Shown piece by piece: positions 20,779 to 39,515 of a DNA stretch of 41,664 bases. This DNA is from Gammaproteobacteria bacterium. GTDB taxonomy: Bacteria > Pseudomonadota > Gammaproteobacteria > CAIRSR01. The stretch is taken from NCBI GenBank assembly GCA_963575715.1, contig CAUYTW010000055.1, positions 1 through 41,664 on the forward strand. The letters run 5' to 3'. Both the position numbers and the translations under genes were made by a program. The notes under the pieces were generated by a model. That model had not been told where the DNA came from. It did no database searches and worked only from the letters and a program-made list of their open reading frames with translations. Position 1 is the first letter of the stretch, and every line of letters begins with the position of its first letter.

Positions 20779-20809
20779 TTTTTTATTGATCCAAATTCGA
20801 ATAATAATT

Positions 20810-20900
20810 AACCCAAGTTGCTACCTATTTGCCTTTCTCCCCTCTCCCTTTGGGAGAGGGGCTATTTGGTTATCCATCATAATAGGTAGCAACTTGGATT
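20810..20900. repeat. Palindromic repeat family 2, complete copy
   Basis: AACCCAAGTTGCTACCTATT at the left and its complement AATAGGTAGCAACTTGGATT at the right (one mismatch) enclose a CCCCTCTCCC/GGGAGAGGGG hairpin. The right part reappears in reverse orientation at 41560-41621. Short pieces of the terminal motif occur at about 35974, 39588 and 37126. It may also end the macroglobulin transcript, but there is no clear T-tract. Confidence 0.6.
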
Positions 20901-20903
20901 AAT

Positions 20904-21009
20904 TAGAAGTTACGCAGTTGAAAAATACGAAGTCATTCTGTGCGAAGCGAAGTCGCAGAATCCATCTACATACTACTTAGGAATTACAAGTTCAACTGCG
21001 TAATTCCTA
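20904..21009. mobile_element. MITE-like inverted-repeat element, copy 2 (short)
   Basis: TAGAAGTTACGCAGTTGAA on the left and TTCAACTGCGTAATTCCTA on the right bound a 106-nt copy of the family first described at 9689. Only one internal CATTCTG/CAGAATC palindrome arm pair remains, so this is an internally shortened copy. It abuts the repeat at 20810-20900. Confidence 0.65.
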
Positions 21010-21221
21010 CTAAATTCGAATTGCCACCTATCCAACGGATAACAAAACAAACCCCCTCTCTCGGAATGCGAGGGAAGAAAGGCGAGCATGTGGCAACTTG
21101 CGTTTGATCTTAATTCGAGTGACAATACCACTCGAATTTGTATCGACTAAAGTAAAATTAGCGTTATGGCGGCAATCGTACAATTTTATAAATTACTTGA
21201 CAACTCACTGAGAACAATAGA
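21010..21221. other. Gene-free stretch with a 19-codon ORF before the pentanucleotide run
   Basis: The first ~100 nt resemble a decayed palindromic repeat (GTGGCAACTTG, CCCCCTCTCTCGG). ATG 21166 opens a 19-codon frame (MAAIVQFYKLLDNSLRTIE) that stops at TGA 21223-21225, overlapping ATG 21222 as ATGA. If translated it could couple ribosomes to that ATG; this is only a possibility. TTGACA at 21197-21202 resembles a -35 box, with TAGAAT 15 nt further, a short spacing. Confidence 0.3.
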
Positions 21222-21364
21222 ATGAAGAACAGAACAGAACAGAACAGAACAGAACAGAACAGAACAGAACAGAACAGAAAGACAATCGATTTGAATTCGG
21301 GGCCAATTGGGAAAGATTTTTAACTACTCTAAATGATGCACGCATAGTTGAAGCTGAACAATCC
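21222..21364 (+). other. Out-of-frame 5' part of the methyltransferase gene (phase-OFF)
   Basis: ATG 21222 opens a frame (MKNRTEQ, then NRTEQ units) that runs through the AGAAC repeat and stops at TAA 21321-21323. In the methyltransferase frame the bases from 21281 read DNRFEFGANWERFLTTLNDA and RIVEAEQS, joining directly to the protein at 21365. This segment is the normal N-terminus of the family, yet that frame has no ATG, GTG or TTG before 21365 and a TAG at 21218-21220. Removing one AGAAC unit (or adding two) would put ATG 21222 in frame and give a protein of about 281 residues. Confidence 0.65.
21226..21275 (+). repeat. Pentanucleotide tandem repeat, (AGAAC)x10
   Basis: Ten perfect AGAAC units are followed by one imperfect unit, AGAAA (21276-21280). 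The run starts 4 nt after the A of ATG 21222, inside the 5' coding part of the methyltransferase gene. Perfect short tandem repeats of this length are prone to slippage in replication. Because 5 is not a multiple of 3, each gain or loss of a unit changes the reading frame. Confidence 0.95.
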
Positions 21365-22072
21365 TTGAAAAGGATGTTAGGCATGGATGATTTATCAGGA
21401 AAGCGATTTTTGGATATTGGATCTGGTAGTGGCCTATTTAGCCTTGCGGCAAAACGTTTAGGCTGTAAAGTCCATTCATTCGACTATGATTCAATATCAG
21501 TAAAATGCACAAAAGAATTAAAGAAACGCTATTATGAAAATGACAGTGATTGGTTTATTGAGGAAGGATCGATTTTAGATGAAAAATATATTGCTTCACT
21601 TGGTAAATTTGATATCGTTTATTCATGGGGGGTACTCCACCACACTGGAAATATGAATAGAGCCTTGAATAATGCAATGCTTCCAGTAGTTGATCAAGGT
21701 ATTTTGTTTATTGCCATTTATAATGATCAAGGAATTTCATCTAAACTTTGGAAAAAAATAAAAAAAACATATTGCTCAACCTGGCTAGGAAAGATATTGG
21801 TGAGCTGTGTTTTTATTCCATTATTTACATTACAGAGCATCATAATAGGATTAATTAAGTATAAAAATCCTATGGGCCACTTTTTTAATTACAAAAAAAA
21901 TCGAGGCATGTCTATATACTACGACTGGTTTGATTGGCTTGGAGGATACCCTTTTGAAGTGGCAAAACCAGAAGACATCTTTCATTTTTATAAGAAGCAT
22001 GGTTATATTTTAAATAATTTAATTACAACGAACAGGTTGGGATGTAATCAATTTCTATTTTTAAAGAAATAG
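21365..22072 (+). CDS. Class I SAM-dependent methyltransferase (phase-variable candidate)
   Basis: The intact frame gives 235 residues from a TTG at 21365. Motif I is FLDIGSGSGLFSLAA, followed by the acidic HSFDYD strand end, and FDIVYSWGVLHHTG is the motif IV/post-II region. The C-terminal part (FDWLGGYPFEVAKPEDIFHF) fits a family of small-molecule or glycan methyltransferases. Conserved N-terminal sequence continues upstream in frame to about 21281, so TTG 21365 is probably not the natural start. With 10 AGAAC units the natural ATG (21222) is out of frame and full-length protein should not be made. The gene is AT-rich compared with the macroglobulin gene, which suggests separate acquisition. 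It ends 9 nt from the convergent TpsA gene. Confidence 0.85.
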   Translation: MKRMLGMDDLSGKRFLDIGSGSGLFSLAAKRLGCKVHSFDYDSISVKCTKELKKRYYENDSDWFIEEGSILDEKYIASLGKFDIVYSWGVLHHTGNMNRALNNAMLPVVDQGILFIAIYNDQGISSKLWKKIKKTYCSTWLGKILVSCVFIPLFTLQSIIIGLIKYKNPMGHFFNYKKNRGMSIYYDWFDWLGGYPFEVAKPEDIFHFYKKHGYILNNLITTNRLGCNQFLFLKK

Positions 22073-37307: not shown

Positions 37308-39515
37308 ATGAAAAACATAACTTTCATTACAACTTTTTCAATCTCATTATTCTTATCTTTTCCTCCCATCGTCACCGCTGAATCTCCGACAGGAATATTC
37401 AACCCAAGCAATAACCATACTTACACCTTTTTTAATACACCCCTAGATTGGGGTTCAGCGCAATCTGCTTGCGGTCAATTGGGTGGTTATCTGGCAACCA
37501 TTACCAGCCAGGAGGAAAATGACTGGATTACAACGAATATAATAGCAGCGGTGAATTCATCGGTATGGGTGGGTGGCACAGATGAAGGGCACGAAGGAAC
37601 CTGGACCTGGGTTACGGGTGAAATATGGGATTATAAAAATTGGAATCCAGGAGAACCAAATAATCTTGGTGGAAATGAAAATTATTTAGAAATAGCTAGT
37701 GCTCGACTTCCCAATGGAATATGGAATGATGGACAAGGTTATTACAGCCTGCCTTACCTTTGTGAGTCAGATTCATTAAATCAAATATATTCAAACGATT
37801 TTAGTGCTGGTGCAGATTCAAGATGGTCGGATCCGAGAACAGCGACGGCCAACGGTGAATCTTTCCTTGGCGCGAGCGCCTATGGCTTTGGCGCTGGTTC
37901 CAACACATTAACCTTGACCAACCTTCCGCCACATACCAGTGTGACAGTCACTTTTGATTTGTACCTTATTCAATCGTGGGACGGGAATGGGCAAGATGGA
38001 GGTGGCCCAGATAATTGGCAATTGACTGCGGATGGAAATACCCTGTTGTTGACCAATTTTGCTAACTGGGTCGGTAGCAATACACAAGCCTATCCTAATC
38101 AATTGCCTCCCTACGGTCCTGGTGGTTCCTTTTTGCCACGCACGCGCGCCTTTGAAAATGGTCATCTCGGTTTTGGTACGGGTAGTTCTGGCGATTCGAC
38201 ATATCGCTTGACTTATACTTTCGCACACACAGCAGCCACCTTGGCGCTGACTTTCACCGGGCAAGAAAATCAATCTCCGGGAGATGAAGGATGGGGCTTG
38301 GACAACGTGCGAGTGAGCATTCCCAACCACAAATTAATCATTACTAAATCAGGCACGGGGAACGGGACGGTTACCAGCGCACCAGCGGGCATTAACTGTG
38401 GCGTGGATTGCAGCGAGGATTTCGCTCCCGGTGCCAAGGTTACCCTGACCGCCAAAGCTGCCACGGGTTCGACATTCGCCGGCTGGAGCGGCGTTGACAA
38501 TTGCCCAGGAACCGGCACCTGCACGGTGACCATGAACGCCGGTGCCACCGTGACCGCGACGTTTCATCCCATCATCTATTCCTTAATTGTCCTGAAAACC
38601 GGAGCAGGCACGGTGACCAGCAATCCAGCGGGGATTAGCTGCGGAAGCGATTGCAACGAAAATTTTTCGCCCGGCGCGCCCGCGTTTACTCTGACTGCAA
38701 CGCCCGCTACGGGATCGATTTTCGCCGGCTGGAATGGAGGCGGTTGTTCAGGAACGGGTACTTGCGTGGTGACCACGACCAGCAGCAAAACGATCAAGGC
38801 ACCTTTCAAAAGCACCGACTTCATAATCACGGCTGTTACCCTCAATCCAGCGGCGGGACTGTCGGCCAACAGTGCCTTTAGTGCAGTGGTGACGATCAAA
38901 AATCAGGGAACCATCGCCGGAGATGGTGGGCAATTGACGGTGTGGGCCGACAAAACAGCCGTTCCCGCGTGTGGCACCAGTGGCGGTCAATCGGCTGCGG
39001 TGGGCGCGTTGGCCGCCGGTGCCAGCAAGACACTGACCATCACCGGATTAACACCGGGGACAAGAGGTATCAAGTCGCTGCGCGCCTTCGTGGATAGTAG
39101 TTGCGCCATCACTGAGTCCAGCGAGACGAATAATCAATTCACCAAGCAATATCGGGTAATGGACTTCCCTGATTTCGTGGTCACAAATGTTATGTTGAAT
39201 CCGGTTAGCCCTACGCATAATGGCACCTTCAAGGCGACGGTAACGGTCAAAAATCAGGGCAGTCTGAGCGCGGAAGCTGGTTTTCTTGATGTCTGGACCA
39301 ATCAACCCACAACTCAAGGATGCGGTGCCCTGGGTAATAAATACCTTGATATTGGCATCCTGGCGGCGGGGGCTGCGAAAACCGTGACCGTCTCCCTACC
39401 AGCAGGCGTGGCGGGCGAAAAAACTTTACGGATTTTCGTGGATAGCTGGTGCGAAACCAGTGAATCCGGCAACGAGGGCAACAACCAGCTCGTCAAAACC
39501 TATACCGTGCAATAA
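37308..39515 (+). CDS. Secreted C-type lectin-like protein with bacterial repeat and CARDB domains
   Basis: The protein has 735 residues, with signal peptide ~1-25. Residues ~30-155 are a C-type lectin domain: WGSAQSACGQLGGYLATI, WVGGTDEGHEGTW, then WNPGEPNN and GIWNDGQG. EPN plus WND is the calcium and mannose-type sugar-binding set. A beta-sandwich-like region follows (~160-345). Two repeats of a bacterial surface module, each with AGINCG.DC or AGISCG.DC and FAGW, span ~348-500. Two CARDB-like domains (FIITAVTLNPAAGLSANSAF and FVVTNVMLNPVSPTHNGTF) end the chain. No sortase or membrane anchor is seen, so it is probably released or held non-covalently. AAAGGAG at 9 nt gives a strong ribosome binding site. 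Confidence 0.87.
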   Translation: MKNITFITTFSISLFLSFPPIVTAESPTGIFNPSNNHTYTFFNTPLDWGSAQSACGQLGGYLATITSQEENDWITTNIIAAVNSSVWVGGTDEGHEGTWTWVTGEIWDYKNWNPGEPNNLGGNENYLEIASARLPNGIWNDGQGYYSLPYLCESDSLNQIYSNDFSAGADSRWSDPRTATANGESFLGASAYGFGAGSNTLTLTNLPPHTSVTVTFDLYLIQSWDGNGQDGGGPDNWQLTADGNTLLLTNFANWVGSNTQAYPNQLPPYGPGGSFLPRTRAFENGHLGFGTGSSGDSTYRLTYTFAHTAATLALTFTGQENQSPGDEGWGLDNVRVSIPNHKLIITKSGTGNGTVTSAPAGINCGVDCSEDFAPGAKVTLTAKAATGSTFAGWSGVDNCPGTGTCTVTMNAGATVTATFHPIIYSLIVLKTGAGTVTSNPAGISCGSDCNENFSPGAPAFTLTATPATGSIFAGWNGGGCSGTGTCVVTTTSSKTIKAPFKSTDFIITAVTLNPAAGLSANSAFSAVVTIKNQGTIAGDGGQLTVWADKTAVPACGTSGGQSAAVGALAAGASKTLTITGLTPGTRGIKSLRAFVDSSCAITESSETNNQFTKQYRVMDFPDFVVTNVMLNPVSPTHNGTFKATVTVKNQGSLSAEAGFLDVWTNQPTTQGCGALGNKYLDIGILAAGAAKTVTVSLPAGVAGEKTLRIFVDSWCETSESGNEGNNQLVKTYTVQ

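Follow-up and report, generated by a model that had tools for sequence, protein, structure and literature searches.

The window, by which we mean the whole 41,664-nucleotide stretch of DNA analysed (contig CAUYTW010000055.1 of the Gammaproteobacteria bacterium assembly GCA_963575715.1), carries on its forward strand a methyltransferase reading frame whose 5' part runs into a perfect array of ten AGAAC pentamers (Table 1). An alpha-2-macroglobulin gene lies upstream, and on the other side are a convergent TpsA exoprotein gene and, beyond TpsA on the opposite strand, one glycosyltransferase gene. On the 5' side of the methyltransferase, positions 20800-20980 contain dispersed palindromic intergenic repeats (REP- or MITE-like); the sampled part of the genome has dozens of similar copies, and G001, a genome of the same genus, has one related copy. 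Elsewhere in the window (37308-39515), a large protein with a C-type lectin domain, a divergent InlB B-repeat and CARDB domains is encoded.

Table 1. Features at the 5' end of the methyltransferase gene (window positions)
Feature	Position	Strand	Support
19-codon open frame, its TGA overlapping ATG 21222 (ATGA)	21166..21225	+	translation
TAG that closes the methyltransferase frame 5' of the 10-unit repeat	21218..21220	+	
ATG, the only start able to feed the methyltransferase frame (unit number a multiple of 3)	21222..21224	+	comparable homologue starts
(AGAAC)x10 simple sequence repeat, followed by partial AGAA to 21279; NRTEQ coding	21226..21275	+	
Class I SAM-dependent methyltransferase frame, off-frame to ATG 21222 at 10 units	21276..22072	+	Pfam, 17-sequence alignment, fold
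RFEFGANW motif codons, 5' of TTG 21365	21287..21310	+	17-sequence alignment
Stop ending the 33-residue OFF product at 10 units	21321..21323	+	

The array begins one base 3' of the ATG and ends in a partial eleventh unit; Tandem Repeats Finder delimited it at 21226-21279 (10.8 copies, score 108), in agreement with the ten perfect units that an earlier note on this DNA had placed in the 5' coding part. ATG 21222 is the sole start in its own frame 3' of the preceding stop, and a frame scan found no ATG, GTG or TTG in the methyltransferase frame between the upstream TAG and the array, as that note had also stated. When the number of units was changed in silico, 6, 9, 12 and 15 units gave an intact enzyme of 276, 281, 286 and 291 residues, respectively, whereas 10 and 11 units gave truncated products of 33 and 25 residues. 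The simulation thereby reproduced the arithmetic proposed earlier, namely that ATG 21222 is off-frame at 10 units with a stop at 21321, reads into a methyltransferase of about 281 residues at 9 or 12 units, and is ON for one unit number in three. Because the unit length of five shares no factor with three, each of the three frames through the array yields the same residues, N-R-T-E-Q, and none contains a stop; the pentamer is stop-free in all six frames. Its position within the 5' coding region means that unit changes shift the frame between a full-length and a truncated product. Control of a promoter via the repeat was rejected, since a consensus scan at the repeat and ATG 21222 scored no better than shuffles, and no clear Shine-Dalgarno sequence was found at this ATG. 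The short open frame that overlaps it could possibly couple translation of the methyltransferase.

The product of the frame is predicted to be a class I Rossmann-fold SAM-dependent methyltransferase. Pfam matches above cut-offs were Methyltransf_23, Methyltransf_12, Methyltransf_31 and Methyltransf_11, SAM motif I reads DIGSGSG (DxGxGxG; D45, G47, G49 and G51 invariant), and the structure predicted from a three-sequence alignment has the class I fold (mean pLDDT 71) and matches UbiG, COQ5, ChlM and similar enzymes. The best NCBIfam match, UbiG, reached 46.4 bits relative to an equivalog cut-off of 102.95, and the gene was therefore not taken for UbiG (ubiquinone O-methyltransferase) proper. 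A phase-variable DNA methyltransferase of the phasevarion Mod type was likewise rejected, since the Pfam matches include no DNA-methylase family. Sequence profiles built on the family match UbiG and phosphoethanolamine methyltransferases; weaker matches are the O-antigen methyltransferase WbdD and a D-glucose O-methyltransferase. The fold search returned generic class I enzymes only, for which reason no substrate was called from the fold, and our searches found no characterised member of the enzyme family, which is marked by an N-terminal FxFGxNW. A sugar or glycolipid is our best guess for the substrate.

Homologues were gathered from named genome contigs and whole genomes, and their starts were taken from open frames rather than from annotation. 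All 16 homologues with a covered 5' end have a start codon 4-27 codons (typically about 10) upstream of the residue at 21281, the point from which family sequence is recognisable in the window, and none of these 16 needs a start at the position of TTG 21365. The FxFGxNW motif (F4, F6, G7, N9, W10) is invariant in 17/17 aligned sequences and lies entirely upstream of this TTG, which upheld the earlier suggestion, to be checked by aligning homologue N-termini, that conserved family sequence extends upstream of the first possible start. Relative to the closest homologue (L008, 75% identical), pN was 0.21 in the 28 codons before TTG 21365 and 0.15 in the rest of the gene (about 0.15-0.21 overall), with pS at approximately 0.8 (saturated) in both parts. 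Since the motif and the homologue starts lie upstream of TTG 21365, the native protein is not the short form that begins there. Homologue starts, invariant motif and coding conservation before the TTG together place the natural start near ATG 21222, and from the sequence the gene is judged to be OFF as assembled. The coding frame is intact through 263 codons: no further stop or frameshift interrupts it, and every family-invariant residue is retained. None of the homologues examined has a simple repeat at its 5' end, and the switch would thus be lineage-specific as far as the comparison reached.

In several genomes the homologues are neighboured by glycosyltransferases of several families, EpsG, one or more ABC transporters and other methyltransferases, and the Azospirillum homologue lies beside glycosyltransferases and a second methyltransferase; this glycan-gene context is absent around two homologues from named contigs, L008 and L009. 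The surface or glycan modification proposed earlier from the genes next door accordingly drew support from the glycosyltransferases beside many homologues, but not strongly from the neighbours in the window (one glycosyltransferase, on the other strand and beyond TpsA). Methylation of a sugar on a polysaccharide or glycolipid of the cell surface is something we infer more weakly than variation of the unit number in the population. In G001-G003, three genomes from the same genus and family, the macroglobulin and CTP synthase genes that flank the stretch are present but the methyltransferase is missing, and no counterpart of the window's TpsA or glycosyltransferase was found at those places. Because the flanks are kept and the three genes between them are not, the stretch at approximately 21.2-25.7 kb looks lineage-specific, and by the same comparison the methyltransferase was probably acquired. 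A phage origin was rejected for lack of any match in 50,697 phage records; matches on plasmids were at most 51% identical.

The array is far removed from what chance or the genomic background would produce. Four tandem AGAAC units were never matched in dinucleotide-preserving shuffles of the window, and a search of 368 other genomes of the class found no run of five tandem units. In a repeat census of 1,601,871 bases of the source genome (43% of 3.70 Mb, window included; a 363-contig draft, the contig ends of which may hide further repeats), it was the only array with a unit of at least 4 bases and at least 5 copies, the other pentamer arrays being three of 3 copies each. In phasome surveys, phase variation has been taken as likely from five pentanucleotides upwards (PMC6321876, PMC5953494), a threshold that the ten perfect units exceed, as they far exceed the genome background. 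The AGAAC repeat seems to be the only one of its kind in the sampled sequence, and a broad contingency repertoire, also considered, was not seen in this 43%.

We therefore regard the locus as a translational contingency locus, caught OFF, in which slipped-strand ON/OFF switching would control the class I methyltransferase (probability about 0.78). Replication slippage would add or remove AGAAC units directly 3' of the start codon; every third unit number (6, 9, 12, 15 and so on) would put ATG 21222 in frame and yield a methyltransferase of approximately 280 residues, while the other numbers would yield short peptides, the assembled 10-unit copy being of this OFF kind. With a surface sugar as the substrate, switching would alter the outside of the cell, perhaps as a defence against phages or grazers. 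Frame arithmetic, the position of the array, the native start and a repeat far outside the background all favour slipped-strand phase variation, the reading that the earlier note had put forward. Most Haemophilus tetranucleotide loci likewise have their array directly after the start codon, pentanucleotide switching rates can be high, and the four-unit GACGA tract of H. influenzae hsdM switches as fast as tetranucleotide tracts that are much longer (PMC2651432). Three related phage genes for C5 DNA methyltransferases (L207, L214 and L220) have 8, 7 and 17 AGAAC units, respectively, at the corresponding place, so that AGAAC arrays differ in length in nature. The number of units presumably varies in the population, although in a draft assembly the ten units counted may reflect a majority call or an error. 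It also speaks against a switch that none of the homologues examined has a repeat and that neither a clear Shine-Dalgarno sequence nor a consensus promoter was found at ATG 21222.

An unlikely alternative is that the gene was recently inactivated by one chance expansion and is now a decaying pseudogene without meaningful switching. The assembled copy is OFF, the methyltransferase is missing from the same genus and family, and the repeat is an isolated feature of the sampled genome sequence that homologues lack, all of which would fit; against decay stand the 263 codons free of any other lesion, with every family-invariant residue in place, and the perfect ten-unit array, which is itself mutable and would therefore make the OFF state reversible. 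A distinctly smaller chance falls to an assembly or consensus error that conceals a number fixed in frame (for example 9 or 12), in which case the gene would be constitutive, with an NRTEQ-rich N-terminus. The draft state of the assembly (363 contigs) speaks for this, as do 12 consecutive G that break the frame of a nuoG-like housekeeping gene elsewhere in it, from which it follows that repeat tracts in this assembly may be miscounted and that their lengths need care. However, the array of 50 bases is perfect and shorter than ordinary short reads, and even 9 or 12 units would lie above the length threshold for likely phase variation (PMC6321876, PMC5953494). The G run itself (G000:C319, about 19912; L156 19912-19923), 3' of which the nuoG-like gene is out of frame, is either an assembly error or a homopolymer switch. 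Hardly credible is a start at TTG 21365 (or ATG 21374 or 21383) that would leave the repeat in an untranslated leader, for although the frame as assembled offers no other start near its 5' end, such a start would lose the invariant FxFGxNW, lie downstream of all 16 homologue starts and leave untranslated 28 codons that are conserved as coding, like the rest.

AGAAC arrays were also observed in phage genes. Six IMG/VR viral contigs (L207 8890-8929, L211, L214, L217 11640-11709, L220 and L221) have 7-17 units inside C5 cytosine DNA methyltransferase genes (PF00145 shown for L207, L211, L214, L220 and L221; L217 assigned by eye), close to where the target-recognition region of the domain would be expected. 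A second array lies nearby in L207, L217, L220 and L221 (ACAG x12, GACAA x8, ACAAG x7 and AGAC x7), and L217 has an additional AAAG x6. Conserved segments of these genes are in different frames on either side of the arrays, which suggests that the phage C5 DNA methyltransferases are phase-variable; the arrays perhaps switch target domains. On the complement strand of viral contig L212, an EcoRI-type adenine methyltransferase gene (PF13651) contains an in-frame array of 6 units. Twelve other contigs (L204, L205, L206, L208, L209, L210, L213, L216, L218, L219, L222 and L223) have 6-8 units in phage open frames, which code QNRTEQNRTEQ, often just 3' of GAAACG- or GTAACG-rich sequence, and look like a recurrent linker or origin-like stretch. 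Only tentatively, and with low likelihood, AGAAC might be a recurrent mutable unit that arose independently in unrelated methyltransferase genes (a cellular small-molecule enzyme here, C5 and EcoRI-type enzymes in phages), in a genome with a single dedicated switch on a surface enzyme. Were this so, a stop-free pentamer that codes the same five residues in each frame would be an ideal switch, and the genome would have one dedicated switch on a surface-modifying enzyme rather than a broad contingency set.

Phase-variable sugar methyltransferases and pentanucleotide switches are already known, and the mechanism is well known from Haemophilus, Neisseria and Campylobacter (cj1426). In Campylobacter jejuni, cj1426 encodes a capsule heptose 6-O-methyltransferase that is phase-variable through poly-G (PMC8437040); the gene described here resembles it in being a sugar or small-molecule methyltransferase gene with a frame-setting simple repeat, a likeness of gene type and repeat, and differs from it in having an AGAAC pentanucleotide and an inferred substrate, where cj1426 has a mononucleotide G tract and a proven one. 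Campylobacter fetus has several phase-variable SAM-dependent methyltransferases, one of them named 'probable 3-demethylubiquinone-9 3-methyltransferase' (PhasomeIt, PMC6321876), which share with the present case a SAM-dependent methyltransferase under a simple repeat and, in the one so named, a UbiG-type name, UbiG being the best sub-threshold NCBIfam match here; the C. fetus set comprises many loci with poly-G tracts in a pathogen, unlike the single array of the sampled genome. Contingency loci based on pentanucleotides are also known from Haemophilus influenzae (hsdM GACGA, hmg-locus TCAGC; PMC2651432) and from Neisseria (PMC5953494); they likewise have a coding pentanucleotide array that is ON for one count in three, the near-start position being typical, although they differ in repeat unit and gene families. 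AGAAC was not found as a phase-variation repeat in the literature searched. What seems unusual here is the combination of a lone array in the sampled genome with a methyltransferase family for which no characterised member was found. Repeat-driven switches have been described mainly in host-adapted pathogens, and one clear case in a draft genome from a little-known lineage suggests that surface chemistry is reversible outside that group too.
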